Part shown: in pieces, positions 1,848 through 18,812 of the stretch | How the letters are laid out: each line of letters begins with the position of its first letter | How positions within the stretch are numbered: the stretch's first letter is position 1 | Assembly (NCBI GenBank): GCA_946555465.1 | Contig: CAMNST010000002.1 | Span: 1-64,000, forward strand | Direction of reading: 5' to 3' | Length of the DNA: 64,000 bases | From: an uncultured Clostridia bacterium | GTDB lineage: Bacteria > Bacillota > Clostridia > Oscillospirales > Acutalibacteraceae | The notes under the pieces: model-generated | What the model was told of the DNA's origin: nothing | Databases searched by the model: none | Seen by the model: the letters and a program-made list of their open reading frames with translations, nothing else | Made by a program: the position numbers and the translations under genes

Positions 1848-1875
1848 TTGACAATATATGCTTTACGTGTATAAT
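1848..1875 (+). promoter_or_regulatory. Promoter of the arginine operon
   Basis: TTGACA (1848-1853), 16-base spacer, TATAAT (1870-1875), 40 bases before the argC ATG. The region 1687-1847 is very AT-rich and holds no gene; TGTATTTTTATTCG near 1798-1811 resembles half of an arginine-repressor (ArgR/AhrC) box, but no full 18-base box was found. No clear minus-strand promoter for the lysis cassette was found here. Confidence 0.7.
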
Positions 1876-1915: not shown

Positions 1916-2857
1916 ATGAAAAAAGTATTCATAGACGGAAAAGACGGAACAACAGGTCTTAAAATATACAACAGATTTGAAAAGCGTGACGATATTGAAC
2001 TGCTTATTATTGACAGCGAAAAACGAAAAGATTCAAAAGAACGCGCAAGAATGATAAATGAAAGTGATATTACTTTTTTATGCCTCCCCGATGCGGCGGC
2101 AATCGAAGCAGTTTCACTTGTTGAAAACGATCATGTAAGAATTATTGATACATCAACTGCACACCGAACTCTTGACAACTGGGCATACGGTTTTGCAGAA
2201 CTGAGCGGTGAGCACCGACGAAGAATTGAAACAAGCAGCAGAATTGCTGTTCCCGGCTGCTATGCCAGCGGCTTTAACTCTATCGTTTACCCGCTTGTAA
2301 AAAACAATTTTATCAGCAAAGATTACGATATTGTTTGTTATGCTTTAAGCGGATATACAGGGGCAGGCAAAAAAGGAATAGCCCAGTATGAAGACGAAAA
2401 CAGAGATACTGAACTTGACTCACCCAGACTTTACGCTCTTACACAGGAACACAAGCATCTTAAGGAAATGGAAGCAATAAGCGGCATCAGCAAAAAGCCG
2501 ATTTTCTCACCCATAATATGTGATTACCCACAGGGAATGGTTGTTACGGTTCCGCTTTATACAAGCAGAATGAATAAAAAATATTCTGCAGAAGATATAT
2601 GCAAAATGCTTAAGGAGCACTATGCAGAATCAGATATAGTTAAAGTAAGAGACTGCGGCTATACACAGTCTATGATAGGTTCAAATAACTTTGCAGGGCG
2701 CGACGATATGGAAATAGAAGTGAACGGAAACGAAGACAGAATTCTGATTACTTCGCGTTTTGACAACCTTGGAAAAGGCGCTTCGGGCGCTGCTATACAG
2801 TGCCTTAATATTGCACTTGGAATTGACGAAAAAACAGGACTTAATATAGGAGATTAA
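1916..2857 (+). CDS. argC: N-acetyl-gamma-glutamyl-phosphate reductase, short type (ArgC)
   Basis: Third step of arginine synthesis: NADPH-dependent reduction of N-acetylglutamyl phosphate to the semialdehyde, in the cytoplasm. At 313 residues it belongs to the shorter type-2 ArgC group (the usual type is about 345). It starts with the nucleotide-binding KVFIDGKDGTTGLKIYNRF, and the catalytic cysteine is in AVPGCYASGFNSIVYPL. STAHRTLDNWAYGFAEL and SGYTGAGKKG are family segments. It is first in the arg operon; argJ follows after three bases. The spacing from GGAG to this ATG is somewhat long (13 bases), but no better start is in frame. Confidence 0.93.
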   Translation: MKKVFIDGKDGTTGLKIYNRFEKRDDIELLIIDSEKRKDSKERARMINESDITFLCLPDAAAIEAVSLVENDHVRIIDTSTAHRTLDNWAYGFAELSGEHRRRIETSSRIAVPGCYASGFNSIVYPLVKNNFISKDYDIVCYALSGYTGAGKKGIAQYEDENRDTELDSPRLYALTQEHKHLKEMEAISGISKKPIFSPIICDYPQGMVVTVPLYTSRMNKKYSAEDICKMLKEHYAESDIVKVRDCGYTQSMIGSNNFAGRDDMEIEVNGNEDRILITSRFDNLGKGASGAAIQCLNIALGIDEKTGLNIGD

Positions 2858-2860
2858 CAT

Positions 2861-4108
2861 ATGAAATTTATTGAAGGCGGAATTTGTGCCGCTAAAGGAT
2901 TTAAAGCAAGCGGAACTTACTGCGGAATTAAAAAGCCGAAAACGGATAATCAGAATCCCAACATAAAACATAAAAACGATATATGCCTTTTTACATCGGA
3001 TGTAATCTGCAACGCTGCAGCAGTTTATACGAAGAACAAAGTAAAAGGCGCACCGCTTATTGTTACAAAGAATAATCTTGAAAAATCATCAGGCACTGCC
3101 ATTGCAGTTATTGCCAACTCAAAAAACGCAAACACCTGTAATGCCGACGGCGAAGAAAAAGCAGCAGAAATGTGCCGCCTTGTGGCTGAAGAACTCAAAA
3201 TTGCACCCGAGCATGTTATTGTTGCTTCTACCGGTGTTATCGGGCAGATCCTTCCGATAGAACCGATACAAAAGGCTGTTCCCGAACTTGTAAAAGAACT
3301 GGACTACGGCAAAAATCTTGAAGCAGCAACCGCAATTATGACAACAGATACCGTAAAAAAGGAATACGCTGTTGAATTTGAAATTGACGGAATTTTATGC
3401 AGACTCGGCGGTATGGCAAAAGGCAGCGGAATGATTCACCCGAATATGGCAACAACGCTTAACTTTATAACAACCGACTGTGCCGTTTCAAAAGAACTTC
3501 TGCAGAAGGCTCTCAGTGAAATTGTTAAAGTTACCTATAACTGCCTTTCAATCGACGGAGATACATCAACAAATGATATGGTATCACTCATGGCAAACGG
3601 ACTTGCAGGCAATAACGAAATTACAGAGGAAGATAAGAATTACGAAACATTCAAATCAGCCCTTTATGAAGTTATGGCTAATCTTACAAGAATGCTTGCC
3701 AAAGACGGTGAAGGTGCAAGCAAACTTCTTGAATGTATCTGTGAAGGTGCACCTGATAAAGACACGGCGATCACGGTTGCAAAGAGCGTTGTCTGCTCTT
3801 CCCTTTTTAAAGCAGCAATGTTCGGCGAAGATGCAAACTGGGGACGTGTTCTTTGCGCTGTTGGTTATGCCGATGCGGAATTTGATATTCATAAAGTAAG
3901 TGTTGATTTAAAGAGTGAAAAAGGCATCATCAGCGTTTGCAGAAACGGAGCAGGCATTGAATTCAGCGAAGAGGAAGCAAGTGTTGTTCTTTCGGCTGAT
4001 GAAATATATATTCTTATTCATCTTAATCAGGGTGAAGAGTCAGCAACCGCGTGGGGTTGTGATTTGACATATGACTACGTCAAAATAAACGGAGATTATC
4101 GAACTTAA
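2861..4108 (+). CDS. argJ: Bifunctional glutamate N-acetyltransferase/ornithine acetyltransferase (ArgJ)
   Basis: 415 residues. ArgJ transfers the acetyl group from N-acetylornithine to glutamate, making the pathway cyclic; some members also use acetyl-CoA. The self-cleavage site is visible in GMIHPNMATTLNFITTDC: the bond before Thr198 is cut to give alpha and beta chains, and the new N-terminal threonine is the nucleophile. The oxyanion region STGVIGQ is present, as is the late GAGIEF segment. AGGAG precedes the ATG. No argA or argE is in the operon, consistent with the cyclic route. Confidence 0.95.
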   Translation: MKFIEGGICAAKGFKASGTYCGIKKPKTDNQNPNIKHKNDICLFTSDVICNAAAVYTKNKVKGAPLIVTKNNLEKSSGTAIAVIANSKNANTCNADGEEKAAEMCRLVAEELKIAPEHVIVASTGVIGQILPIEPIQKAVPELVKELDYGKNLEAATAIMTTDTVKKEYAVEFEIDGILCRLGGMAKGSGMIHPNMATTLNFITTDCAVSKELLQKALSEIVKVTYNCLSIDGDTSTNDMVSLMANGLAGNNEITEEDKNYETFKSALYEVMANLTRMLAKDGEGASKLLECICEGAPDKDTAITVAKSVVCSSLFKAAMFGEDANWGRVLCAVGYADAEFDIHKVSVDLKSEKGIISVCRNGAGIEFSEEEASVVLSADEIYILIHLNQGEESATAWGCDLTYDYVKINGDYRT

Positions 4109-4219: not shown

Positions 4220-5077
4220 ATGGATATTAATAACGCACAGAAAGCAGAAATACTGGCTCATGCCCTGCCGCACATTCAAATGTACCGAAAAAAAATTGTT
4301 GTTGTAAAATACGGCGGCAATGCTATGATTAACGAAGAACTGAAAGAGGCAGTTATGAGAGACCTTGTTCTTCTCACAACTGTAGGAATCAAGGTTGTTC
4401 TTGTTCACGGCGGAGGTCCTGAAATTAACAAAACCCTGAACAGAATGAACATTGAAAGCAAATTTGTTGACGGATTAAGAGTTACCGACAAAGATACGGT
4501 TGATGTTGTGCAGATGGTACTTGCAGGTAAAGTTAACAAAGACCTTGTATGCCAGATTGGAAATATGGGCGGTCACGCTATCGGACTTTCGGGTATGGAC
4601 GGAAATATGATTGAATGCAGACCGCTTGATGACAAGCACGGATATGTCGGTGAAATAATGAATGTAAACACTGAGGTTATTGATGAAGTCCTTAACCACA
4701 GTTTTATTCCGGTTATTTCAACTATCGGATATGATAAAAACGGAAACTGCTACAATATTAATGCAGATACCGTTGCAGCCGCCATTGCAGGTGCTTTGAA
4801 CGCTGAAGCACTTGTTTCAATGACGGATATCGTTGGTCTTTTACGTGATAAAGACGACGATTCAACACTTATTCACAGAGTTTATATTTCAGATACTCCT
4901 GCACTTATTGCTGAAGGAATTATCAGCGGAGGTATGATACCGAAAATTGACTCAATGACCGAAGCATTAAGACAAGGGGTTAAAAAAGCATTTATTATTG
5001 ACGGACGTGTTCCCCACTCTATTCTTATGGAACTTCTTACAGATGAAGGTATGGGAACCATGTTCAGAAGCAGGTGA
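4220..5077 (+). CDS. argB: Acetylglutamate kinase (ArgB)
   Basis: 285 residues, amino-acid kinase fold. It phosphorylates N-acetylglutamate with ATP, normally the arginine-inhibited step in organisms using the ArgJ cycle. Visible family segments: VVVKYGGNAM (phosphate binding), VLVHGGGPEIN, the FVDGLRVTD loop, NINADTVAAAIAGALNAE, and SGGMIPKIDSMTEAL near the C-terminus. The N-terminal extension before the kinase core (KAEILAHALPHIQMYRKK) matches the helix that arginine-sensitive kinases use for hexamer formation. AAGGAG precedes the ATG. argD begins seven bases downstream. Confidence 0.96.
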   Translation: MDINNAQKAEILAHALPHIQMYRKKIVVVKYGGNAMINEELKEAVMRDLVLLTTVGIKVVLVHGGGPEINKTLNRMNIESKFVDGLRVTDKDTVDVVQMVLAGKVNKDLVCQIGNMGGHAIGLSGMDGNMIECRPLDDKHGYVGEIMNVNTEVIDEVLNHSFIPVISTIGYDKNGNCYNINADTVAAAIAGALNAEALVSMTDIVGLLRDKDDDSTLIHRVYISDTPALIAEGIISGGMIPKIDSMTEALRQGVKKAFIIDGRVPHSILMELLTDEGMGTMFRSR

Positions 5078-5084
5078 TTAAATT

Positions 5085-6245
5085 ATGAATACAAAAGAAT
5101 TAGACAATGAATATGTTGCCCATGCCTATGGCAGATTTAATGTTGCACTTTCAAAGGGCAAGGGTTCAACACTCTATGATGAAGACGGAAAAGAATACAT
5201 TGACTTTGGTTCCGGAATCGGTGTAACTGCATTCGGCATCAGTGATAATGAATGGAAAATGGCTGTTGAAATGCAACTTGACAAACTTCAGCATGTAAGC
5301 AATCTTTATTACACTGAGCCATGTGCAAAACTTGCAAAACTGCTTTGCGAAAAAAGCGGTATGAAAAAAGTGTTTTTCTCAAACAGCGGTGCAGAAGCAA
5401 ACGAAGGTGCAATAAAATTTGCAAGAAAGTATTCTTTTGACAAATACGGTGAAGGCAGAAGCACGATAATTACCCTTGAGAATTCTTTTCACGGCAGAAC
5501 AATAACAACCCTTGCCGCTACAGGACAGGATAGTTTTCATACTGTTTTCGGTCCTTTTACCGAAGGTTTTAAATACTGCCGGGCAAATGACCTTAAGATG
5601 CTTGGTGAAATGATAACAGACGATGTTTGTGCAATTATGTTTGAGTGTGTTCAGGGTGAAGGCGGCGTTAATAACCTTGACTTTGATTTTGTTAAAGCAA
5701 TAGAAAGCATTGCTGCAGAAAAAGACATACTTATGATTGTTGACGAAGTTCAGACAGGAAACGGCAGAACCGGAAAATATTTTGCCTATCAGAATTTTGA
5801 TATTATGCCCGACATTGTTTCAACAGCAAAAGGCATGGCAGGCGGACTTCCGATGGGCGCTGTTCTCTTCGGTGAAAAACTGAAAGAAACTGTTTCACCG
5901 GGCTCCCATGGTTCAACTTTCGGCGGAAACCCTATCTGTGCTGCCGGTGCATGCTCAATCGTTTCAAGAATTGATGATGAATTTCTTGAAGAAGTATGTA
6001 AAAAAAGTGAATACATAAAAGAATATCTTCTGAATACAGACGGCGTAAAATCTGTTTCTGGTATGGGGCTTATGCTTGGCGTTGAAACAGAAAAAGATGC
6101 AAAAGCAGTTGCACAGGAATGCCTTGAAAACGGTCTTCTTGTACTTACTGCAAAAACAAAAATCAGACTTCTTCCTGCTCTTAATATCAGCAAATGCGAA
6201 CTCGACAGAGGTCTTAAAATATTGAAAGAGGTAATTGAGAAATGA
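5085..6245 (+). CDS. argD: Acetylornithine aminotransferase (ArgD)
   Basis: 386 residues, class-III PLP aminotransferase. It converts N-acetylglutamate semialdehyde to N-acetylornithine with glutamate as donor. Family segments: FGSGIGVTAFG, FFSNSGAEANEGAIKFARKY, NSFHGRT, ECVQGEGGVN, IVDEVQTGNGRTGKYFAYQ, and the PLP lysine in VSTAKGMAGGLPMGAVL. GGNPICAAGA and the C-terminal RLLPALNIS follow as usual. It overlaps argF by four bases (ATGA), so the two are translationally coupled. Such enzymes often also act on succinyl-diaminopimelate, which cannot be judged from sequence. Confidence 0.95.
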   Translation: MNTKELDNEYVAHAYGRFNVALSKGKGSTLYDEDGKEYIDFGSGIGVTAFGISDNEWKMAVEMQLDKLQHVSNLYYTEPCAKLAKLLCEKSGMKKVFFSNSGAEANEGAIKFARKYSFDKYGEGRSTIITLENSFHGRTITTLAATGQDSFHTVFGPFTEGFKYCRANDLKMLGEMITDDVCAIMFECVQGEGGVNNLDFDFVKAIESIAAEKDILMIVDEVQTGNGRTGKYFAYQNFDIMPDIVSTAKGMAGGLPMGAVLFGEKLKETVSPGSHGSTFGGNPICAAGACSIVSRIDDEFLEEVCKKSEYIKEYLLNTDGVKSVSGMGLMLGVETEKDAKAVAQECLENGLLVLTAKTKIRLLPALNISKCELDRGLKILKEVIEK

Positions 6246-7144
6246 AACATTTATTAAAATTACAGGATTTAAGCCATCACGATATTCTTGATATTTTAAA
6301 TCTTGCCGATCAACTTAAATACGAAACAAAGCACGGCATTGAACATCATCACCTCAAAGGCAAAACTCTTGGTATGATTTTTCAGAAAAGTTCAACCAGA
6401 ACAAGAGTAAGTTTTGAAACAGGTATGTATCAGTTAGGCGGTCAGGCTCTTTTCCTTTCCAACAGGGATTTGCAGATTGGCAGAGGTGAACCCGTTGAGG
6501 ACACAGCAAGAGTTCTTTCACGTTATCTTGACGGAATTATGATAAGAACCTTTGAACAGAAAGAAGTTGAAGACCTTGCAGAATACGGTTCAATTCCTAT
6601 TATCAACGGTCTTACAGACTACTGCCACCCTTGTCAGGTGCTTGCCGATCTTATGACTATACGCGAATATAAAAAGAGTTTTGACGGACTGAAATTCTGT
6701 TTTATCGGTGACGGAAACAATATGGCAAACAGTTTAATTGTGGGGGCAATCAAAATGGGAATGCGTTGTGCCATTGCCTGCCCCGAAAATTACAAACCTG
6801 ATGCAGAAATAATGAAATGGGCTGAAGAAAACGGCGACTTTATGTGCAGCAGCGATATTCTTGCCTGTGCAAAAGATGCAGATGTAATCTACACAGATGT
6901 ATGGGCATCAATGGGTCAGGAAGAAGAAAAGGCTGAAAGAGAAAAAGTGTTTAAAGATTTCCAGATTAATGACAGTGTTATGGAAGTTGCAAACGAAGGT
7001 GCTATGGTGCTTCACTGCCTCCCTGCACACAGAGAAGAAGAAATCACTGCAAAAGTATTTGAAGAACATGCCGATGAGATTTTTGACGAGGCAGAAAACA
7101 GACTTCACGCTCAGAAAGCAGTTCTTGTTAAACTTTTAGGCTAA
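6242..7144 (+). CDS. argF: Ornithine carbamoyltransferase (ArgF)
   Basis: 300 residues. It makes citrulline from ornithine and carbamoyl phosphate. Signature STRTR is seen in QKSSTRTRVSFETGMYQLGG (carbamoyl-phosphate binding). The second signature is HPCQVLADLMTI, and the ornithine loop is HCLPAHREEEI. VWASMGQEEE is the SMG-loop region. It is followed after 17 bases by carA, which with carB supplies its substrate. argG and argH, needed to finish arginine, are not in the window. Confidence 0.95.
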   Translation: MKHLLKLQDLSHHDILDILNLADQLKYETKHGIEHHHLKGKTLGMIFQKSSTRTRVSFETGMYQLGGQALFLSNRDLQIGRGEPVEDTARVLSRYLDGIMIRTFEQKEVEDLAEYGSIPIINGLTDYCHPCQVLADLMTIREYKKSFDGLKFCFIGDGNNMANSLIVGAIKMGMRCAIACPENYKPDAEIMKWAEENGDFMCSSDILACAKDADVIYTDVWASMGQEEEKAEREKVFKDFQINDSVMEVANEGAMVLHCLPAHREEEITAKVFEEHADEIFDEAENRLHAQKAVLVKLLG

Positions 7145-7161
7145 TTATTAGGAACGATATT

Positions 7162-8238
7162 ATGACAGATAAAAAAGTTTACATATGTCTTGAAAACGGA
7201 AAAATTTTTGAAGGCAAATGTTTCGGTGCAGAAGGCGAAGTTATCGGCGAACTTGTTTTTACAACAGGTATGGGCGGATATATTGAAACGCTGACCGATC
7301 CGAGTTATTACGGCCAAATTGTTATGCAGACATTTCCGCTTATAGGCAATTATGGTTTTATAAATGAAGACAAGGAAAGTGCAAAATCATTTGTCAGCGC
7401 ATACATTGTGCGTGAATACTGCGAAGAACCGTCAAATTTCAGATGCAATGATACACTTGACTCCTATCTCAGGCAGAATAATATTGTTGGTGTATATGAC
7501 GTTGACACACGCGAAATAACAAAAATTATCAGGGAAAGCGGTGTAATGAACGCTGTTATAACAACAAATCCCGATAATATTGATTATGATATTGTAAAGG
7601 CTTACAAGGTTGAAAAAGCTGTTAAATCAGTTTCGGCAGTTAAGCCTTCTCTCAGCCCTGCCAAGGAACATAAATATAATGTTGTTCTGATTGACTACGG
7701 AACAAAAAATAATATTGTAAGAGAACTGAATAAAAGAGGCTGTAATGTTGCCGTTGTTGCGCATGATACCCCTGCTGAAGATATACTTTCTTTAGATCCA
7801 GACGGAATTATGCTGTCAAACGGTCCCGGAGATCCTGAGGAAAACACTTATGAAATTGAGCAGTTAAAAAAACTTATCGGTAAAAAGCCGATATTTGCAA
7901 TCTGCTTAGGTCATCAGTTACTTGCACTGTCTCAGGGTGCAAAAACAACAAAACTTAAATACGGCCACCGCGGTGTTAATCAGCCTGTTAAAAATCTTGA
8001 AACCGGCAGAACTTTTATTTCTTCGCAAAACCATGGTTATGCTGTTATCAACGAAACTGTTGAAAACGCAGGCGGATGTGTAAGTTACATCAATGCCAAT
8101 GACGGAACATGCGAAGGCGTTGATTATAAAGACAAGCAGGCTTTTTCTGTTCAGTTTCATCCGGAAGCCTGTTCGGGTCCGCATGATACAAGATTTATAT
8201 TTGACAAATTTATTGATATGATGGGAGGTAACAAATAA
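7162..8238 (+). CDS. carA: Carbamoyl-phosphate synthase small subunit (CarA)
   Basis: 358 residues. It hydrolyses glutamine and passes ammonia to CarB. The N-terminal CPSase domain begins CLENGKIFEGKCFGAEGEVIGELVF, and the C-terminal class-I glutamine amidotransferase domain has the nucleophile in IFAICLGHQLLALSQG, with His and Glu of the triad in QFHPEACSGPHDT. SNGPGDPEEN is the family loop. Its place between argF and carB suggests a synthase dedicated to arginine, although the same enzyme may also serve pyrimidines. The stop is one base before the carB start. Confidence 0.95.
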   Translation: MTDKKVYICLENGKIFEGKCFGAEGEVIGELVFTTGMGGYIETLTDPSYYGQIVMQTFPLIGNYGFINEDKESAKSFVSAYIVREYCEEPSNFRCNDTLDSYLRQNNIVGVYDVDTREITKIIRESGVMNAVITTNPDNIDYDIVKAYKVEKAVKSVSAVKPSLSPAKEHKYNVVLIDYGTKNNIVRELNKRGCNVAVVAHDTPAEDILSLDPDGIMLSNGPGDPEENTYEIEQLKKLIGKKPIFAICLGHQLLALSQGAKTTKLKYGHRGVNQPVKNLETGRTFISSQNHGYAVINETVENAGGCVSYINANDGTCEGVDYKDKQAFSVQFHPEACSGPHDTRFIFDKFIDMMGGNK

Positions 8239-8239
8239 T

Positions 8240-11200
8240 ATGCCTCTTAATAAGGATATAAAAAAGGTTCTGGTTATCGGTTCAGGGCCTATCGTTATAG
8301 GACAGGCAGCCGAATTTGACTATGCAGGTGCTCAGGCATGCCGCGTACTTAAAGATGAGGGAATTGAAGTTGTTCTTGTAAACTCAAACCCTGCCACAAT
8401 TATGACCGACAAAGCACTTGCCGACCATATTTATCTTGAACCGCTTACCGAAGAAACGGTTAAAAGAATTATTGAAAAAGAAAAACCCGATTCCATTCTC
8501 TGCGGTCTCGGCGGACAGACGGGGCTTACAATCGGTATGCAGCTTGCCAAAGACGGTTATCTTGACAAAATGAGCGTTAAACTGCTCGGAACGAATGCCG
8601 AAGCGATTGATAAAGCGGAAGACAGACAGATGTTTCGCGACACAATGGTAAAAATCGGTCAGCCTGTTGTTCCCAGCGATATTGCATATACCCTTGAAGA
8701 TGCAGAAAAAATTGCAGATGAAATCGGCTATCCTGTTATAATACGCCCTGCTTTCACGCTCGGCGGTGCCGGGGGCGGCGTTGCAAACGATAAAAGCGAA
8801 CTTGACATTGTAGCCAAAAACGGACTTATGCTTTCCCCTATAACACAGGTTCTTGTTGAAAAATATATTGCCGGCTGGAAAGAAATTGAGTTTGAAGTTA
8901 TGAGAGACAGTGCAGGCAATGTTATTGCAGTCTGCTCCATGGAAAATTTTGATCCGGTCGGAGTTCATACCGGTGACAGCATCGTAATTGCACCAGCAGT
9001 AACACTTGCTGATAAAGAATACCAGATGCTTCGTTCCGCTTCTCTTGATATCATTACCGAACTCGGCATTGAAGGCGGATGCAACTGCCAGTTTGCACTT
9101 AATCCCGAAAGTTTTGAATATTCGGTAATTGAAGTTAACCCGAGAGTATCGCGTTCCTCTGCACTTGCATCAAAAGCAACAGGTTATCCTATTGCAAAGG
9201 TAACAACAAAAATTGCGCTCGGTTATACTCTTGATGAAATAAAAAATGATATCACAGGAAAAACCTGTGCTTGCTTTGAGCCGACACTTGACTATGTTGT
9301 TATCAAACTTCCGAAATGGCCTTTTGATAAATTTGTAAATGCATCACGAAAACTCGGCACGCAGATGAAAGCGACCGGAGAAGTTATGAGCATTGCCCCA
9401 AGTTTTGAAATGGCGATTATGAAAGCCGTAAGAGGGGCAGAAATAGGTCTTGATACGCTCAACAACAAAATTCTTGACGGTGCAGATATAATGGAAAAAC
9501 TCCACAGCCAGGATGATATAAGACTGTTCTCTGTGTTCAAGGCGCTCAAGGAAGGTATATCTATTGAAAAAATACACGAAATCACTATGATTGACGAGTG
9601 GTTTCTTGCAAAACTTAAAAATCTTGCCGATTATGAAAAAGAAATAGAAAATACAGTTTTAAGCGAAGAATTGTACCTTAAAGGCAAAAAACTGGGCTAC
9701 ACAGATAATGCGCTGAAAAAAATCAGCGGCAATTCAGTTTCATATCATAAAGACTGTGTATATAAAATGGTTGATACCTGCGGTGCTGAGTTTGAGGCAG
9801 AAACCCCTTATTTCTATTCAACATATGATAATCATTGCGAATCAAGAGAACTTGAAAAATCAGGCAAGAAAAAAATCATCGTTCTGGGTTCGGGTCCTAT
9901 AAGAATAGGACAAGGAATTGAATTTGACTACTCCTGTGTTCACTGCGTATGGACGCTTAAGGAACTCGGTTATGAAGTTATTATAGTAAATAACAACCCG
10001 GAAACCGTTTCTACAGACTTTGACACAGGTGACAGACTTTACTTTGAACCGCTGACTGATGAAGATGTTATGAACATCATAAAGGCAGAAAATCCGATTG
10101 GCGTTGTTGTTGCGTTCGGCGGACAGACTGCCATAAAACTTACAAAATTCCTTGATGACAGCGGTATAACCATATTCGGAACCAGTGCCCGGTCGATTGA
10201 CCTTGCGGAAGACAGGGAAAAATTTGATGCTCTGCTTGAAAGATTCAATATTTTCAGACCCAAGGGCGAAAGTGTTATGACACTTGACGAGGCATTATCC
10301 GCGGCTGACAGACTTGGTTACCCTGTTCTTCTCCGCCCGTCATACGTTATAGGCGGTCAGAATATGACCATTGCATATACGAATGACGATGTCTGCCAAT
10401 ATATGGAAATTATACTTTCACAGGGAATTGAAAACCCTGTACTTGTTGATAAATATATGATGGGATGCGAACTTGAGGTTGACTGCATATCAGACGGCAA
10501 AAACGTTCTTATTCCCGGAATTATGGAGCATATTGAACGTGCAGGTGTTCACTCAGGCGACTCAATAGCGGTATACCCACCATATAATCTCAACGATATG
10601 ATGCTTGAAAAAGTTTGCAAAGTATCCGAAAATCTTGCCCTTTCGCTTGAAACAAAGGGTCTTGTAAACATTCAGTATCTGATTTATCAGAATGAACTTT
10701 ACGTTATTGAAGTAAATCCGAGAGCGTCAAGAACAATTCCATATATAAGCAAAGTTACCGGTGTTCCGATGGTTGAACTTGCTACCAAAATAATGGTAGG
10801 CGCATCACTTGAAGAACTCGCCTACGGCACCGGTCTTTACAGAACACCGCCGTACTATGCTGTTAAAGTGCCTGTTTTCAGTTTTGAAAAACTTAACGAT
10901 GTAAACTCAAAACTCGGTCCTGAAATGAAATCAACAGGTGAGGTTCTCGGCGTAGGCAAAAATCTGATTGAGGCTTTGTTCAAAGGTCTTGTTTCGGCAG
11001 GATTTAAAACAGATTTTCACCGAAAAGATAAGCATGGTGTGCTAATCACCGTAACCAAGCAGGACAGATTTGAAATCGTTAATCTGGCAAAAAAACTCGA
11101 TGATCTCGGTGCTGAAATCTGGGCAACACCTGAAACTGCCAAGGCTATTGAGAGTCTTGGAATACATGTTTCTCTTGTAAACAAACTGCACGAAGATAAT

Positions 11201-12271
11201 TCAATAATGAACCTTGTTGAATCAGGCAAACTTGATTACATTGTTTACACCGGAAAGAGCGATAAAAAATCAATAGCCGACTATATTAAACTCCACAACA
11301 GAGCAAATCAATTAGGCATTGCAACGATTACATCACTTGATACCGCTAATGCTGTTGCAGATATAATTGCATCAAGATATAAAGAAACAAATACCGAACT
11401 TGTAGACATAAATAATATGAGAACAGAAAAAGGTATTCTTAAATTTTCAAAAATGCACGGCACGGGTGATGACTATATTTTCTTTAATAATCAGTGCGGT
11501 ATAATCACCTGCCCCGAAAGTTTTGCCATTGAATTCAGTGACAGGCATAAGGGAATCGGCGGTGACGGCATTGTTCTTATTGAAAAAAGCGATATTGCCG
11601 ATGCAAAGATGCGCATATTCAACATTGACGGCTCTGAAGGAAAAATGGCCGGTAACTCAATAAGATGTATGGGCAAATACCTTTATGACAATGACATTAT
11701 CAAAAAAACACAAATGACTATAGAAACGGCATCCGGAATTAAAACACTTTCTCTGTTTACAAGAAACGGAAAAGTATCTTCCGTAACAGTTGATATGGGT
11801 AAAGCACAGTTGAATTCTGAACTTATCCCGGTATCTGCCGATGCCGACAAAGTTATTGATTACCCTGTTTCAATCGGTGGTAAAGAATATAAAATCACCT
11901 GCTGTTCGGTAGGTAATCCGCACTGTGTTGTTTTTGCAGACAATATTGACAAAATTGATATTCCGGAAATAGGGCCTTTATTTGAAAGTGCAGATATCTT
12001 TCCTGAAAGAATCAACACGGAATTTGTTCGTGTGGTTAATTCAAAAACACTTAAAATGCGTGTATGGGAACGCGGCAATGGTGAAACCCAGGCATGCGGT
12101 ACAGGCGCCTGCGCTGCAGTAATTGCTGCTGTTGAAAACGGCTGGTGTAATAAAGGTGAAAACATAACCGTAAAGGTTAAGGGCGGCGACCTCATAGTGA
12201 ATTATACCGATGAAAAGATAACACTTACCGGAGACTGCCACTTAGTTTACAAAGGCGAAATCGAATATTAA
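8240..12271 (+). CDS. Fusion of carbamoyl-phosphate synthase large subunit (CarB) and diaminopimelate epimerase (DapF)
   Basis: One unbroken frame of 1343 residues, where CarB alone is normally about 1070. Residues 1-1059 are a complete CarB: two ATP-grasp halves, each opening with a GSGPIxIGQ motif (KVLVIGSGPIVIGQA and KIIVLGSGPIRIGQG), an oligomerisation region, and the C-terminal MGS-like regulatory domain (HGVLITVTKQDRFEIVNLAK). From about residue 1060 (DNA 11417) the protein is a full DapF: LKFSKMHGTGDDYIFF, catalytic Cys1143 in AGNSIRC, PHCVVF, and catalytic Cys1286 in QACGTGACAA. The two cysteines are 143 apart, close to the usual DapF spacing. No ribosome binding site lies before the internal ATGs (11417, 11452), so separate translation is unlikely. 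CarB makes carbamoyl phosphate; DapF converts LL- to meso-diaminopimelate for lysine and peptidoglycan. Confidence 0.93.
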   Translation: MPLNKDIKKVLVIGSGPIVIGQAAEFDYAGAQACRVLKDEGIEVVLVNSNPATIMTDKALADHIYLEPLTEETVKRIIEKEKPDSILCGLGGQTGLTIGMQLAKDGYLDKMSVKLLGTNAEAIDKAEDRQMFRDTMVKIGQPVVPSDIAYTLEDAEKIADEIGYPVIIRPAFTLGGAGGGVANDKSELDIVAKNGLMLSPITQVLVEKYIAGWKEIEFEVMRDSAGNVIAVCSMENFDPVGVHTGDSIVIAPAVTLADKEYQMLRSASLDIITELGIEGGCNCQFALNPESFEYSVIEVNPRVSRSSALASKATGYPIAKVTTKIALGYTLDEIKNDITGKTCACFEPTLDYVVIKLPKWPFDKFVNASRKLGTQMKATGEVMSIAPSFEMAIMKAVRGAEIGLDTLNNKILDGADIMEKLHSQDDIRLFSVFKALKEGISIEKIHEITMIDEWFLAKLKNLADYEKEIENTVLSEELYLKGKKLGYTDNALKKISGNSVSYHKDCVYKMVDTCGAEFEAETPYFYSTYDNHCESRELEKSGKKKIIVLGSGPIRIGQGIEFDYSCVHCVWTLKELGYEVIIVNNNPETVSTDFDTGDRLYFEPLTDEDVMNIIKAENPIGVVVAFGGQTAIKLTKFLDDSGITIFGTSARSIDLAEDREKFDALLERFNIFRPKGESVMTLDEALSAADRLGYPVLLRPSYVIGGQNMTIAYTNDDVCQYMEIILSQGIENPVLVDKYMMGCELEVDCISDGKNVLIPGIMEHIERAGVHSGDSIAVYPPYNLNDMMLEKVCKVSENLALSLETKGLVNIQYLIYQNELYVIEVNPRASRTIPYISKVTGVPMVELATKIMVGASLEELAYGTGLYRTPPYYAVKVPVFSFEKLNDVNSKLGPEMKSTGEVLGVGKNLIEALFKGLVSAGFKTDFHRKDKHGVLITVTKQDRFEIVNLAKKLDDLGAEIWATPETAKAIESLGIHVSLVNKLHEDNSIMNLVESGKLDYIVYTGKSDKKSIADYIKLHNRANQLGIATITSLDTANAVADIIASRYKETNTELVDINNMRTEKGILKFSKMHGTGDDYIFFNNQCGIITCPESFAIEFSDRHKGIGGDGIVLIEKSDIADAKMRIFNIDGSEGKMAGNSIRCMGKYLYDNDIIKKTQMTIETASGIKTLSLFTRNGKVSSVTVDMGKAQLNSELIPVSADADKVIDYPVSIGGKEYKITCCSVGNPHCVVFADNIDKIDIPEIGPLFESADIFPERINTEFVRVVNSKTLKMRVWERGNGETQACGTGACAAVIAAVENGWCNKGENITVKVKGGDLIVNYTDEKITLTGDCHLVYKGEIEY

Positions 12272-12280
12272 TAAAAAATA

Positions 12281-12320
12281 AAAAGCAGAAGTTTAAAAAA
12301 TTTCTGCTTTTTTATTTTTT
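12281..12320 (+). terminator. Terminator of the arginine operon
   Basis: Stem AAAAGCAGAA (12281-12290) with TTCTGCTTTT (12302-12311), followed by TTATTTTTT. It is nine bases past the fusion-gene stop. Confidence 0.85.
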
Positions 12321-12323
12321 CTG

Positions 12324-12381
12324 TTGACATATACAGTTACACTGTATATAATGATACTATACAGTATAACTGTATAGGAGG
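12324..12381 (+). promoter_or_regulatory. Promoter with two palindromic operators for the PadR-like regulator
   Basis: TTGACA (12324-12329), a 17-base spacer and TATAAT (12347-12352). Operator 1, TATACAGTTACACTGTATA (12330-12348), fills the spacer. Operator 2, TATACAGTATAACTGTATA (12358-12376), covers the transcription start and abuts the GGAGG ribosome binding site (12377-12381). Both are TATACAGT-N3-ACTGTATA palindromes with centres 28 bases apart. Autorepression by the downstream regulator is inferred. Confidence 0.85.
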
Positions 12382-12389
12382 ATATTTCT

Positions 12390-12704
12390 ATGAACAGAAA
12401 CAAAAATTTGCCCCTTACAGAAACCGTGTACTATATTCTTCTTGCGCTTAATAAACCATTGCACGGATACGCAATTATGCAGGAAGTTGAAAGGCTGAGT
12501 TGCGGAGATGTAAGACTTGCTGCCGGAACAATGTACGGTGCGATTGAAAATCTTTTAAACAAAAAATTAATAATGCCAACACTAAGCGACGATGTGCGAA
12601 GAAAAACATATGTAATAACTCCGCTCGGAAAAGAAATACTTGAAGCAGATTATCAGCGAATGAAGTATATTATAAATGTTTCGGGCAATATTCTGGGGGT
12701 ATAA
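12390..12704 (+). CDS. PadR-family transcriptional regulator
   Basis: 104 residues, essentially only a winged helix: LPLTETVYYILLALNKPLHGYAIMQEVE, then AAGTMYGAIENLLNKKLI and RRKTYVITPLGKEIL, the classic PadR order. PadR proteins bind palindromes as dimers and often control their own small operon together with a membrane protein. Here the next gene, four bases after the stop, is a DUF2812 membrane protein, a common pairing. The twin palindromes over its promoter are the natural binding sites. The ligand is unknown. Confidence 0.9.
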   Translation: MNRNKNLPLTETVYYILLALNKPLHGYAIMQEVERLSCGDVRLAAGTMYGAIENLLNKKLIMPTLSDDVRRKTYVITPLGKEILEADYQRMKYIINVSGNILGV

Positions 12705-12708
12705 AATT

Positions 12709-13329
12709 ATGATAAAATTAAAAGTATTTATAAATCTTGAAAAAGAGGAAAAATGGCTCACGGAAATGGCAGAACGAGGATGGGAAGTGAATAAAGTTTC
12801 GCTTTTTTATCATTTTACCAAAATCGTTCCCTATAAAGGAATATACAAAATTGATTTCAGAGAATTTAAAAATAAATATGACTTTGAAGATTACAAATCC
12901 ATATTTGAAGACAGCGGCTGGACACATATTGCAGGAACAAAAACATCAGGTTTACAGTATTTTAAATGCAAATCAGAAAACATTAATAATGATATTTTCT
13001 CCGACATCCTTTCACGTTCTGTGCTATATAAAAGAATTTATGACCGATATCTTTTATACACTGTCCCCTTCTTGTCATGGCTTGTTACAATGATTTGTGG
13101 GGGAACAATTAATCTTAACTATTTTCTTTCGCCCAAAAGTTGGTATCTTACACCGGGGTTATGGGATATGGAAGGCGCAAAATTCATATATAGTTTTTTA
13201 TTTGAAACACCTTTTGCTGTTATGAGAGGATGTTCCTGGCTGATTGTAGTTTTCTTTATAATGATGAATATTATTTTTTCTATAAAAACAAAACGGATTT
13301 ATAAAAAACATTTAAAATCAGATAAATAA
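12709..13329 (+). CDS. DUF2812-domain membrane protein
   Basis: I use the ATG at 12709, just past the PadR stop, rather than an upstream start inside that gene; this gives 206 residues. The N-terminal region (EEKWLTEMAERGWEVNKVSLFYHFTK ... YKIDFREFKNKYDFEDYKSIFEDSGW) matches DUF2812, a cytoplasmic domain of unknown function found next to PadR regulators. Two or three membrane segments follow (YLLYTVPFLSWLVTMICGGTI, a region near GLWDMEGAKFIYSFLF, and CSWLIVVFFIMMNIIF), ending in a basic tail. Probably it forms a sensing or stress module with the PadR protein; the function is not known. Confidence 0.75.
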   Translation: MIKLKVFINLEKEEKWLTEMAERGWEVNKVSLFYHFTKIVPYKGIYKIDFREFKNKYDFEDYKSIFEDSGWTHIAGTKTSGLQYFKCKSENINNDIFSDILSRSVLYKRIYDRYLLYTVPFLSWLVTMICGGTINLNYFLSPKSWYLTPGLWDMEGAKFIYSFLFETPFAVMRGCSWLIVVFFIMMNIIFSIKTKRIYKKHLKSDK

Positions 13330-15729: not shown

Positions 15730-15747
15730 ATAAACGAGGTGATATTT

Positions 15748-16551
15748 GTGTTAAACAGACAACTTGATTACATAAAAAATATAACTGATTTTGAGCCTGA
15801 AATTGTTCTTGTTCTCGGCAGCGGGCTGGGCGATTTAGGCAATGAAGTTGATGCACAGTGTATAATAAATTACAGAGATATTCCCGGTTTTCCTGTTTCA
15901 ACAGCGCCAAGCCATAACGGGAAACTGATATTCACTGAAATTTCAGGAAAAAAGACTGCAATTATGCAGGGGCGTGTTCATCTGTACGAAGGATATACAC
16001 CTGCTCAAACAGTAAATCCGCTCAGGCTTTTAAGAAAAATGGGTGCAAAAACCTTATTTTTAACGAATGCCGCAGGCGGAATAAACAGCAGTTTTCGCCC
16101 GGGGGATTTAATGATTATAAATGACCATATATCAAGTTTTGTTGACTCCCCTCTTATCGGTCCTAATGATGACACTCTCGGAGTAAGATTCCCTGATATG
16201 AGCGAAGTATATTCAAAACGTCTGAGAAACATAATTTCCGACACTGCCGATAACCTTAATATTGATATAAAGAACGGAGTGTATATTCAGTTCAAAGGTC
16301 CGAACTTTGAAACACCTGCAGAAATACAGATGGCAAAAATATTAGGAGCAGACGCTGTCGGAATGAGCAGTGCCATTGAAGCACAGGCTGCAAAACACTG
16401 CGGATATGAAGTGTGTGCCATAAGCGTTATTTCAAATCTCGCCTGCGGAATAAGCAAAACCCCTATTACAAGTGAAGAGGTTGAAGAAACGGCAAAGCAA
16501 ATTGCACCTAAATTTAAAAAACTTGTTATAAAATCCATAGAAAATTTTTAG
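15748..16551 (+). CDS. Purine nucleoside phosphorylase, trimeric PNP/MTAP family
   Basis: The GTG at 15748 follows GAGGTGA at five bases, giving 267 residues. It cleaves purine nucleosides with phosphate to free base and pentose-1-phosphate. Segments: VLVLGSGLGDLGNEVD (phosphate loop), SHNGKLIF, QGRVHLYEGY, TNAAGGINSSFRPGDLMIINDHIS, GPNFETPAEIQMAKILGADAVGMSSAIEAQAAKHCG and ISNLACGIS. The base-binding Asn and Glu of the inosine/guanosine class can be placed in FETPAE and SNLACG, but the fit to 5-prime-deoxy or methylthio nucleosides cannot be read reliably. The two downstream genes suggest that methylthioinosine or 5-prime-deoxyinosine is a natural substrate. Confidence 0.9.
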   Translation: MLNRQLDYIKNITDFEPEIVLVLGSGLGDLGNEVDAQCIINYRDIPGFPVSTAPSHNGKLIFTEISGKKTAIMQGRVHLYEGYTPAQTVNPLRLLRKMGAKTLFLTNAAGGINSSFRPGDLMIINDHISSFVDSPLIGPNDDTLGVRFPDMSEVYSKRLRNIISDTADNLNIDIKNGVYIQFKGPNFETPAEIQMAKILGADAVGMSSAIEAQAAKHCGYEVCAISVISNLACGISKTPITSEEVEETAKQIAPKFKKLVIKSIENF

Positions 16552-16561
16552 TGAGAGAAAA

Positions 16562-17542
16562 ATGATAAATTTAAAATATACAAATCAAAAACTATTAATT
16601 CTTGACCAAACACTTCTGCCAAACGAAGAAAAGTGGGTTGAAATAAAGAATAAAGAAGATGCATACGAGGCAATAAAAAAACTGATGGTACGCGGTGCAC
16701 CTGCGATAGGTATTTTTGCCGGTTACTGTATGGCAATTTTTTCAAAAGATAATGATATTCACGAACTGAAAAAATACCTTGACTCTGCACGCCCTACTGC
16801 AGTTAATCTCAGTTGGGCAACAAAAAGAATTGTAAATGCTTTTGAAAACGGCAAAAATCTTATTGACGAAGCAGTTGCCATACAGAATGAAGATATTGAG
16901 ATGTGCCGAAAAATCAGTGAATTTGGCTTATCGCTGCTTAAAGACGGTAACGGAATCTTAACCCACTGCAATGCCGGTGAACTTGCTGCCAGCAGATACG
17001 GAACAGGGCTCGGCCCGATTATTCTCGGCAAGGAAAAGGGTTATAATTTCAAAGTATTCTGCGACGAAACAAGGCCGCTTCTTCAGGGCGCAAGACTCAC
17101 TTCATACGAACTGGAAAAAGCAGGGGTTGACGTTACACTGATATGTGATAATATGGCAGGCTATGCCATGAAAAACGGACTTATTGATGCAGTTCTCGTG
17201 GGTTGTGACAGAGTGGCTGCGAACGGTGACGTTGCAAATAAAATAGGCACAAGTTCAGCCGCTGTTCTTGCAAAATATTATAACATTCCGTTTTATGTTC
17301 TCGGTCCTTATTCAACTGTGGATTTCACCTGCAAAAGCGGCGATGACATCGTTATTGAAGAAAGAAACAGTGATGAAATAAAAGAAATGTATTTTGAAAA
17401 ACCCACTGCGCTGAAACAGACGAGGTGCCTTAACCCCTCATTTGATGTTACCGATAACTCGCTTATAACGGCAATTATAACCGACAAAGGAATTATAAGA
17501 CCGCCATACAACATTAATCTCAAGGAGAAACTGAATGATTAG
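16562..17542 (+). CDS. mtnA: S-methyl-5-thioribose-1-phosphate isomerase family (MtnA-like)
   Basis: 326 residues of the aldose-ketose isomerase subgroup of the eIF-2B alpha/beta/delta family. Catalytic cysteine in GILTHCNAGELAASRYGTGLGPI and catalytic aspartate in VGCDRVAANGDVANKIGT. VRGAPAIGIFAGY and DETRPLLQGARLTSYEL are also family hallmarks. It would isomerise methylthioribose-1-phosphate, or equally 5-deoxyribose-1-phosphate, to the ribulose form. It lies ten bases after the phosphorylase and overlaps the deaminase by eight bases. No mtnB, mtnK, mtnD or class-II aldolase gene follows, so the later fate of the sugar phosphate must be encoded elsewhere. Confidence 0.92.
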   Translation: MINLKYTNQKLLILDQTLLPNEEKWVEIKNKEDAYEAIKKLMVRGAPAIGIFAGYCMAIFSKDNDIHELKKYLDSARPTAVNLSWATKRIVNAFENGKNLIDEAVAIQNEDIEMCRKISEFGLSLLKDGNGILTHCNAGELAASRYGTGLGPIILGKEKGYNFKVFCDETRPLLQGARLTSYELEKAGVDVTLICDNMAGYAMKNGLIDAVLVGCDRVAANGDVANKIGTSSAAVLAKYYNIPFYVLGPYSTVDFTCKSGDDIVIEERNSDEIKEMYFEKPTALKQTRCLNPSFDVTDNSLITAIITDKGIIRPPYNINLKEKLND

Positions 17543-18812
17543 ATTTTATAACGGCAGAATTTTAAGCCTGAAAGATAATTTTGACATAACTGAAGGCGAA
17601 ATATGGACAAATGGCAATAAAATTGAATATGTCGGAAACAGCAAAGATACAGACAATATTGCCTTTGAACGGGAAATTAATCTCAACGGCAATCTGATTA
17701 TGCCTTCTTTCAAAAACGCACACACTCATTCGGCAATGACATTCGGCAGAAGTTTCAGCGATGACCTTCCGCTTCAGGAATGGCTTTATGACAAGATTTT
17801 TCCGCTTGAGGCAATGCTTTCGGGAGATGATATTTACAAACTTTCAAAAGTTGCATTTCTTGAATATCTTACAAGCGGAATTTCGGCTTGTTTTGATATG
17901 TATTATTTCCCTGAAAATATGGCAAAGGCAAGCGTTGAAACAGGGTTCAGAACCGTTATGTGCGGTGCGGTAAATGATTTTAAAGAATCGGTTTCTCTGC
18001 TTGAAGATTATTATAATAAATACAATAATTACGATGAACTTATCTCATATAAATTAGGTTTTCACGCTGAATATACTACTGATAAATCCATAATGAAAAA
18101 TATTGCAAAACTATCTGAAAAATATCAGTCGCCTGTTTTTATGCATTCCAGCGAAACAGCAAAAGAAACAATGGACTGCATGCATGTATACAATAAAACA
18201 CCTACAGAACTTTTTGAAAAAATCGGTCTGTGGAATTACGGCGGCGGTGCCTTTCACAGCGTATGGGTAAACGACGAAGATCTTGATATTTATAAAAAAC
18301 ACGGTATTTACGCAATTATCAACAGCGGTTCAAATTCAAAACTTGCATCGGGCATTGCCCCTGTATCACTTATGATGGATAAAGGCATAAATCTTGCTAT
18401 CGGTACAGACGGACCGAGTTCAAATAATGCTCTTGATATGTTCAGGGAAATGTATCTTACTTGCGTTTTGCAGAAACTGAAAAACAAAGATGCAGCATCA
18501 ACAGATGCAAATAAAATTCTTGAGGCGGCAACAGTCGGTTCGGCAAGATGTATGGGGCTTAACGACTGTGATGTTATTGATATCGGCAAAAAGGCTGATT
18601 TAATTGTTATTGACTTACAGAAACCAAATATGCAGCCAATACACAATATTACTAAAAATCTTGTTTACAGCGGTTCTAAGGACAATATTAAACTGACAAT
18701 GATTAACGGAAAAATTCTTTACGAAAACGGCGAATTCCGCGGTATGGATACAGAAAAAATATACCGTGAAGCACAGGAAGTTGTTAACAGAATAACAAAA
18801 ATTCAAGAATAA
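17535..18812 (+). CDS. Amidohydrolase, probable 5-methylthioadenosine/S-adenosylhomocysteine deaminase type
   Basis: 425 residues. Metal-dependent amidohydrolase with the metal-binding AHTHSAM (HxH), GFHAEYTTD (His), HSSE after PVFM, GGAFHSVW (His) and the metal aspartate in AIGTDGPSSNN. It has N- and C-terminal beta-sandwich segments (NGRILSLKDNFDI; DLIVIDLQKPNMQP). The MtaD/SsnA/TrzN group deaminates adenine nucleosides such as methylthioadenosine, SAH or 5-prime-deoxyadenosine. The overlap with mtnA and the phosphorylase upstream support deamination followed by phosphorolysis and isomerisation. Guanine or chlorohydrolase activity is possible but less likely in this context. Confidence 0.85.
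   Translation: MIRFYNGRILSLKDNFDITEGEIWTNGNKIEYVGNSKDTDNIAFEREINLNGNLIMPSFKNAHTHSAMTFGRSFSDDLPLQEWLYDKIFPLEAMLSGDDIYKLSKVAFLEYLTSGISACFDMYYFPENMAKASVETGFRTVMCGAVNDFKESVSLLEDYYNKYNNYDELISYKLGFHAEYTTDKSIMKNIAKLSEKYQSPVFMHSSETAKETMDCMHVYNKTPTELFEKIGLWNYGGGAFHSVWVNDEDLDIYKKHGIYAIINSGSNSKLASGIAPVSLMMDKGINLAIGTDGPSSNNALDMFREMYLTCVLQKLKNKDAASTDANKILEAATVGSARCMGLNDCDVIDIGKKADLIVIDLQKPNMQPIHNITKNLVYSGSKDNIKLTMINGKILYENGEFRGMDTEKIYREAQEVVNRITKIQE

Follow-up and report, generated by a model that had tools for sequence, protein, structure and literature searches.

A DapF domain fused to carbamoyl phosphate synthase in Clostridia: loss of a catalytic cysteine and a possible turn from epimerase to ligand sensor

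What might a diaminopimelate (DAP) epimerase domain do at the end of the large subunit of carbamoyl phosphate synthase (CPSase), in the last gene of an arginine operon? The question is raised by a carB-dapF fusion gene in 64,000 nucleotides of DNA from an uncultured Clostridia bacterium of the family Acutalibacteraceae (assembly GCA_946555465.1, contig CAMNST010000002.1, positions 1 to 64,000 of the forward strand), a stretch termed the window throughout. The original prediction, made from the letters of this DNA, described a complete CarB joined to a complete DapF that would tie the supply of meso-DAP to the arginine operon. Here, we report that the fusion is genuine and that its DapF domain lacks the first of two catalytic cysteines; the domain looks like a former epimerase that has, on balance probably, become a regulatory part of CPSase.

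The fused frame and its active site

The gene and its parts are laid out as follows:
8240..12271, + strand: carB-dapF fusion gene, 1343 residues, with the Shine-Dalgarno match GGAGGT 7 nt upstream of the start
8240..11362, + strand: CarB part with its MGS-like domain, residues 1-1041 (TIGR01369)
11375..11437, + strand: linker, residues 1046-1066, with the motif TELVDIN.MR (alignment of fused proteins)
11438..12268, + strand: DapF domain, residues 1067-1343 (TIGR00652 and end-to-end alignment with solved DapFs)

The frame at 8240-12271 is single and uninterrupted over 1343 codons, as had been predicted. Its first part is matched by the NCBIfam profile for the CPSase large subunit (TIGR01369) over residues 4-1041 at 1413.8 bits against a cut-off of 1027, which bears out the claim of a complete CarB, and its second part by the DapF profile (TIGR00652) over residues 1068-1342 at 269.4 bits against a cut-off of 114.65. 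Within the junction at 11250-11500 the sole in-frame start codons are the ATG codons of M1060 and M1072, both without a Shine-Dalgarno match, in keeping with the claim that no internal ribosome binding site is present; matches of 4-6 bases, of which four bases is a weak match, stand before all seven genes of the operon. The length of the linker is constant in an alignment of 35 hand-picked fused proteins, and the linker differs in at least two fused proteins outside that alignment (L125 and L126). An assembly error is very unlikely because the fusion forms an uninterrupted long frame in 37 of the 60 genomes sampled from the window's genus and in many other genera, and such open frames, together with the missing Shine-Dalgarno match at the junction, speak strongly against both a frame error and a separately started DapF. 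Read from the sequence, the gene encodes one polypeptide, a complete CPSase large subunit to which a conserved linker joins a DapF domain at the C-terminus.

The CarB part has the full-length profile match, the ATP-site residues and the neighbouring carA (7162-8238) of a CPSase large subunit. Across both halves, 17 of 18 listed ATP sites are the same as in E. coli CarB; the exception is D207E, and Glu at this position is common to the second CarB of the same genome and to 12 other fused copies aligned. The MGS-like domain (Pfam PF02142) lies at residues 945-1031, and its sites for uridine monophosphate and ornithine give a mixed picture as to whether they have been lost.

The catalytic pair of DapF consists of Cys73 and Cys217 in E. 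coli numbering, according to passages of PMC12039745, PMC5296763 and PMC4227774. The original prediction placed both in the window protein at normal spacing, as Cys1143 and Cys1286, and alignment to E. coli DapF and to solved DapFs gives the following assignment:
11468..11470, + strand: Asp1077 (GAT), at the position of E. coli Asn11
11648..11650, + strand: Ala1137 (GCC), at the position of the first catalytic cysteine, E. coli Cys73
11657..11659, + strand: Ser1140 (TCA), at the position of E. coli Gly76; Ser or Cys in 37 of 37 fused copies extracted from the genus
11666..11668, + strand: Cys1143 (TGT), at the position of E. coli Cys79; the cysteine earlier called catalytic
12095..12097, + strand: Cys1286 (TGC), the retained second catalytic cysteine, E. 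coli Cys217

The motif that begins with Cys73 in E. coli DapF, CGNGARC, reads AGNSIRC here. The earlier assignment thus stands for Cys1286, the true equivalent of Cys217, and falls for Cys1143, since the first catalytic cysteine is replaced by Ala1137; to pass from a cysteine codon (TGY) to GCC takes two base changes. Cys1143 was also considered as a substitute base and rejected, since several fused copies have Ser, Asn, Gly or Leu at its position.

The domain has the profile match and the Cys217 of a DapF and lacks its Cys73 and its Asn11, the latter lying near the alpha-amine of the substrate. All of the DAP-binding residues Asn64, Asn157, His159, Asn190, Glu208, Arg209, Gly218 and Thr/Ser219 are present, and most of these conserved pocket residues either bind DAP at its distal end or are located on the opposite face of the reaction centre, as passages of PMC12039745 and PMC5296763 describe; the second also describes DapF lobes closing upon ligand. 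Exchange of either cysteine for alanine leaves almost no activity in the DapF of C. glutamicum (same passages of PMC5296763), and a cysteine-to-serine change in a weakly homologous racemase leaves less than 0.1% (part of PMC8225329). Because the cysteine on one face of the alpha-carbon is gone, as judged from the alignment and these published mutants, normal LL-to-meso epimerisation by the window domain is very unlikely.

A search for a second dapF in the same genome, proposed with the original prediction, succeeded: a standalone copy of 282 residues with both cysteines lies on contig 6 of this genome (G000) at 92682-93515 on the minus strand and adjoins dapL (TIGR03542, 619.6 bits). A second carB, a frame of 1068 residues scoring 1483 bits and 50.7% identical to the fused CarB, sits among pyrimidine genes recognised by eye.

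Two kinds of fused DapF

CarB with a C-terminal DapF, whose taxonomic range the original prediction proposed to map, is common in the genus, family, order and class of the window's genome. By counts made by eye, the long fused frame occurs in the 37 genus genomes given above, some of whose frames run off a contig end, in at least 49 of 150 genomes of the family, in at least 115 of 295 of the order and in at least 48 of 341 of the class, at least 43 of the last lying outside the order; a 38th genus genome, G042, has a partial copy broken by an in-frame TGA. Domains were fetched for 60 of at least 106 fused places in the order outside the family and for 20 of at least 43 in the class outside the order. 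Named contigs with the fusion include those of Ruminococcus sp. FC2018 and Neglectibacter sp. X58. Three contigs titled Spirochaetaceae or Treponema (L205, L211 and L176) also carry fusions that lack Cys73, which suggests transfer out of Clostridia or mis-binning; a search for other DapF matches (Ddh was not searched) found none in the genomes of L211 and L176 and only a weak one in that of L205. A standalone DapF follows the fusion directly in L186 (a 311-residue frame at 2887) and L119 and after about 2 kb in L129, with Cys73 present in both DapF copies of each, an arrangement which suggests that the fused domain was duplicated in tandem or split off.

The residues of the pocket were surveyed in 266 domains, after removal of identical sequences, domains shorter than 240 residues and nine duplicate loci, and with the fused state of L181 set to unknown. 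Among 189 non-identical fused domains, 54 have Cys73 and 135 do not; the residue in its place is Ala in 105, Gly in 17, Ser in 9, Phe in 2, Tyr in 1 and Thr in 1, and each of the 37 fused copies extracted from the window's genus has Ala there. Of 76 standalone domains, counting that of E. coli, 75 have Cys73, the exception (L100) being cut by a contig edge, and so have 17 of 17 further second copies. The rest of the pocket is kept in nearly all of the 135 Cys73-less copies: Cys217 in 133, Glu208 and Arg209 in 134 each, Asn190 and Gly218 in 135 each, His159 in 133, and Asn157 and Asn64 in 132 each. Twenty more fused copies from other orders divide into 9 with Cys73 and 11 without, and 9 of the 11 keep the pocket residues and Cys217. 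After clustering at 75%, which leaves 89 Cys73-less sequences, the 12 pocket sites have a mean conservation of 0.958 against 0.687 for all sites. Position 76 is Gly or Ala in 54 of 54 fused copies with Cys73 and in 76 of 76 standalone copies; in the 135 without Cys73 it is Ser or Cys in 79, one of Ser, Cys, Asn or His in 92, and Ala or Gly in 43, so that the pocket may have been re-tuned here after the cysteine was lost.

Within the genus, the fused DapF has a median ratio of nonsynonymous to synonymous substitution rates (dN/dS) of 0.104, the values for CarB and the standalone DapF being 0.066 and 0.138; with dS near 1, all are rough (30 fused and 30 standalone genes, of which 23 and 55 pairs had a dS of 0.1-1.2). 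The fused DapF of the genus is under purifying selection and does not look like a domain in decay; it has lost a catalytic residue, yet selection still maintains the domain and its ligand pocket, as expected of a pseudoenzyme regulatory domain.

The two kinds also differ in their genomic setting. Of the 67 genomes compared whose fusion lacks Cys73, 66 gave matches for another route to meso-DAP, either Ddh (PF16654) or a second DapF, versus 17 of 32 with Cys73 (Fisher p 3e-8, with relatedness among the genomes left uncorrected), counting weak or partial Ddh matches in G196, G102, G153, G090, G111 and G459; for a second DapF alone, which in most order-level genomes is a match count only, the figures are 47 of 67 versus 8 of 32 (p 3e-5). 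This comparison draws 99 genomes from the samples of the family and the order and sets aside G084, G092 (a broken frame, with a second DapF present), the window's genus, genomes whose domain is identical to a kept row and genomes at class level. In the order sample, 51 of the 60 domains fetched lack Cys73; two or more DapF matches occur in 41 of these genomes and Ddh in each of the remaining 10, once as a weak, split match, while the 9 with Cys73 have a second DapF match in one, Ddh in three and neither in five. In the class outside the order, where Ddh was not searched, a second DapF match accompanies 7 of 11 Cys73-less versus 1 of 9 Cys73 fusions, and in the window's genus it is found in 36 of the 38 genomes with a fused copy, the exceptions being G057 and G010 (62% complete).

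At the locus itself, where a few loci share one genome, argB, argD or argF at more than 45% identity lies upstream in 38 of 60 Cys73-less loci versus 0 of 23 with Cys73 (9 of 31 versus 0 of 23 outside the window's genus), and dapL directly follows the fusion in 0 of 83 versus 11 of 44 (0 of 47 versus 11 of 44 outside the genus). Ruminococcus sp. FC2018 has the fused gene with both cysteines, followed by dapL, and no DapF match elsewhere in the genome. By eye, a second CarB is present in at least 12 of 29 Cys73-less genomes (one a partial 592-residue frame) and at least 6 of 26 with Cys73. The predicted tie between meso-DAP supply and the arginine operon is not supported for the window's genome, because Cys73 is lost and a normal DapF stands beside DapL elsewhere; it does fit relatives with an intact Cys73, many of which have no recognised route to meso-DAP besides the fused DapF (15 of 32 genomes), yet none of the 23 loci with Cys73 has arg genes upstream.

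Possible roles of the Cys73-less domain

The reading that we favour, with some reserve, is that an active fusion turned into a pseudo-epimerase, which most likely serves CPSase as a regulatory domain that binds DAP. DAP binding is most likely retained because the DAP-holding residues and the opposite cysteine are conserved, and a pocket that would bind without converting, placed next to the MGS domain, looks like a ligand sensor. The ancestor, to judge from the relatives, would have been a working fused epimerase, in some lineages within a carA-carB·dapF-dapL unit, and the lineages that keep Cys73 would retain the fusion as a DAP epimerase. In other lineages, most of which have another route to meso-DAP, the fusion would have lost one catalytic cysteine and kept the pocket; in the window's genus this form is part of the arginine operon. 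The domain would most likely still bind LL- or meso-DAP and close without turnover; closure could pass movement to the neighbouring MGS regulatory domain, so that the output of carbamoyl phosphate might be tuned, up or down, to DAP, lysine or cell-wall supply, while the separate DapL-DapF pair would make the meso-DAP of the window's genome. The change from active to pseudo-epimerase probably happened more than once: a FastTree tree gives 16 changes of the Cys73 state and 17 clades in which it is lost throughout, and since the counts come from this tree, repeated loss is likely and its number is not fixed. The wider proposal of a repeated conversion to a CPSase with a built-in DAP sensor, with the fusion moving into arg operons and meso-DAP synthesis passing to a separate DapF or to Ddh, is a tentative one.

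Several observations weigh against this sensor reading. The association of Cys73 loss with another meso-DAP route is not established across the tree, as one clade of 114 rows dominates and supported branches hold only 2 independent pairs. For a second DapF alone, the family sample gives 10 of 20 versus 7 of 24 genomes, which is not significant (p 0.22), and the 2 pairs lean slightly the opposite way. Neither another DapF nor Ddh was found beside the Cys73-less fusions of G105 (99% complete), G057 (92% complete, 420 contigs) and G084 (72% complete, with a copy at a contig edge), and only one DapF match accompanies those of the class-level genomes G648, G531, G585 and G637, where Ddh was not searched; the L211 and L176 genomes, likewise not searched for Ddh, carry Cys73-less fusions outside the 67. 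That the fused CarB is always an arginine paralogue was considered and rejected, as it is the only CarB in many genomes, among the matches listed, and is therefore not always arginine-specific. Asn11 is replaced by Asp in 59 of the 135 Cys73-less copies, so the ligand may have changed. In four genomes the fusion persists despite a damaged pocket, which would suit a structural role: G191 (locus L130) has Tyr at Cys73, Ser at Cys217 and changes at Glu208 and Arg209, G433 (L278) has Gly73 and Ser217, G666 (L332) has changes at Asn190 and Arg209, and G706 (L329) has a change at Arg209.

Such a structural role, in which the DapF domain is kept only for the oligomer or fold of CPSase and its pocket is an idle relic, would accord with these four genomes, with the dimeric state of free DapF (part of PMC5296763) and with the single linker length of the 35 aligned proteins. 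We consider it unlikely, as each distal-pocket residue and Cys217 are kept in 132-135 of the 135 Cys73-less copies and the pocket in 9 of 11 from other orders, and the pocket sites stand far above the mean in conservation. Distinctly unlikely is a bifunctional protein that is still an epimerase, in which Asp11 or a Ser or Cys at position 76 takes the place of Cys73: Ser or Cys at 76 is confined to Cys73-less copies, and no other route is recognised in G105 and G057, but 43 of the 135 have Ala or Gly at position 76, Asp11 occurs in only 59, another route exists in 66 of the 67 genomes compared, and in the published passages hardly any activity survives a C-to-A or C-to-S change in DapF or its kin (PMC5296763, PMC8225329).

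A new chemistry would explain why Cys217 is kept in 133 of 135 Cys73-less copies, more than binding alone seems to require. In the proline racemase superfamily the loss of one cysteine gives a dehydratase, and the domain could by analogy be a one-base enzyme such as a lyase or isomerase of DAP or of a diamino acid of the arginine pathway; this seems improbable, as the distal DAP-binding residues are the same in nearly all copies, DAP has no obvious leaving group and no partner gene suggests a new product. Artefact or decay, with two proteins produced by misassembly or by separate starts, or with a domain in the course of being lost, finds some footing in the in-frame TGA of the partial G042 copy and in the broken frame of G092, but it is highly improbable given a frame open in 37 of 60 genus genomes and in other orders of the class, a junction without a Shine-Dalgarno match, a dN/dS of about 0.10 and a cysteine-to-alanine change that takes two base changes.

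That a dead DapF can regulate a partner follows from E. coli, where DapF(C73&217A) still binds and stimulates RppH (part of PMC4227774). The parallel to a Cys73-less domain acting on CPSase is limited in that the E. coli DapF is a separate protein and its partner is unrelated to CPSase. Human CPS1, a CPSase switched by a small molecule, likewise keeps a domain that has lost its catalytic cysteine (Ser294; part of PMC4655335), but CPS1 lost its native glutaminase, whereas here the lost activity is that of a C-terminal addition, an enzyme from a different pathway. DapF2, a PLP-dependent (pyridoxal phosphate) epimerase described in part of a gut-microbiome survey (PMC9026213), offers an alternative to the DapF step from an unrelated, unfused family; an enzyme of this type, not searched for in these genomes, is a possible reason for exceptions such as G105.

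With the DapF family at large (TIGR00652/PF01678, with members in E. coli, H. influenzae, Anabaena and C. glutamicum) the window domain shares its full length, the second cysteine and the distal DAP residues, and unlike these enzymes it is fused to CarB and has Ala at the first cysteine and Asp at Asn11. With CarB (TIGR01369) the protein shares the complete synthase, the MGS domain and carA just upstream, and it differs by the extra C-terminal DapF. The original prediction knew of no published description of the fusion, and we found neither a CarB-DapF fusion nor a Cys73-less DapF described in the papers listed by searches of an open full-text library, as judged by titles and the starts of abstracts; most subscription journals and all preprints lie outside that library.

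CPSase is a textbook allosteric enzyme, and we know of no input to it from cell-wall or lysine metabolism. If the sensor reading is true, the fusion would represent a new kind of allosteric input, by which the supply of arginine, and sometimes of pyrimidines, is coupled to that of cell-wall and lysine precursors. The setting is Clostridia, with named relatives mostly from gut and rumen. The relatives as a whole form a natural series within one gene family, from an active-looking fused epimerase through a one-cysteine pocket to a damaged pocket, along which the change from enzyme to sensor could be followed residue by residue. Because such domains pass the DapF cut-off without the catalytic cysteine, counting them as DapF could misassign DAP and lysine pathways.

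The arginine operon and its surroundings

The fusion gene is the last of the gene order argC-argJ-argB-argD-argF-carA-carB·dapF, which comprises, together with its putative signals:
1848..1875, + strand: sigma-70-type promoter TTGACA-16-TATAAT before argC, a 12/12 pattern match
1916..2857, + strand: argC (TIGR01851, 357.8 bits)
2861..4108, + strand: argJ (TIGR00120, 447.3 bits)
4220..5077, + strand: argB (TIGR00761, 254.6 bits)
5085..6245, + strand: argD (TIGR00707, 437.5 bits)
6242..7144, + strand: argF (TIGR00658, 424.1 bits)
7162..8238, + strand: carA, CPSase small subunit (TIGR01368, 450 bits)
12280..12312, + strand: terminator-like stem-loop of 15 pairs directly 3' of the fusion gene, a pattern match only
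12324..12352: second promoter match, 12/12, after the terminator-like stem, a pattern match only

The scan of the window for promoters gave 40 sites against 34.8 (sd 5.9) in shuffled sequences, no excess overall, and that for terminators gave 12 against 8.6 (sd 2.7). Behind the second promoter match, after the operon, a DUF2812 protein (PF11193, 100.8 bits) is encoded at 12676-13329 on the + strand. Further along, at 15739-18812 (+ strand), an adjacent trio of phosphorylase superfamily, IF-2B family and amidohydrolase genes presumably resembles a nucleoside or methylthioribose salvage cluster.

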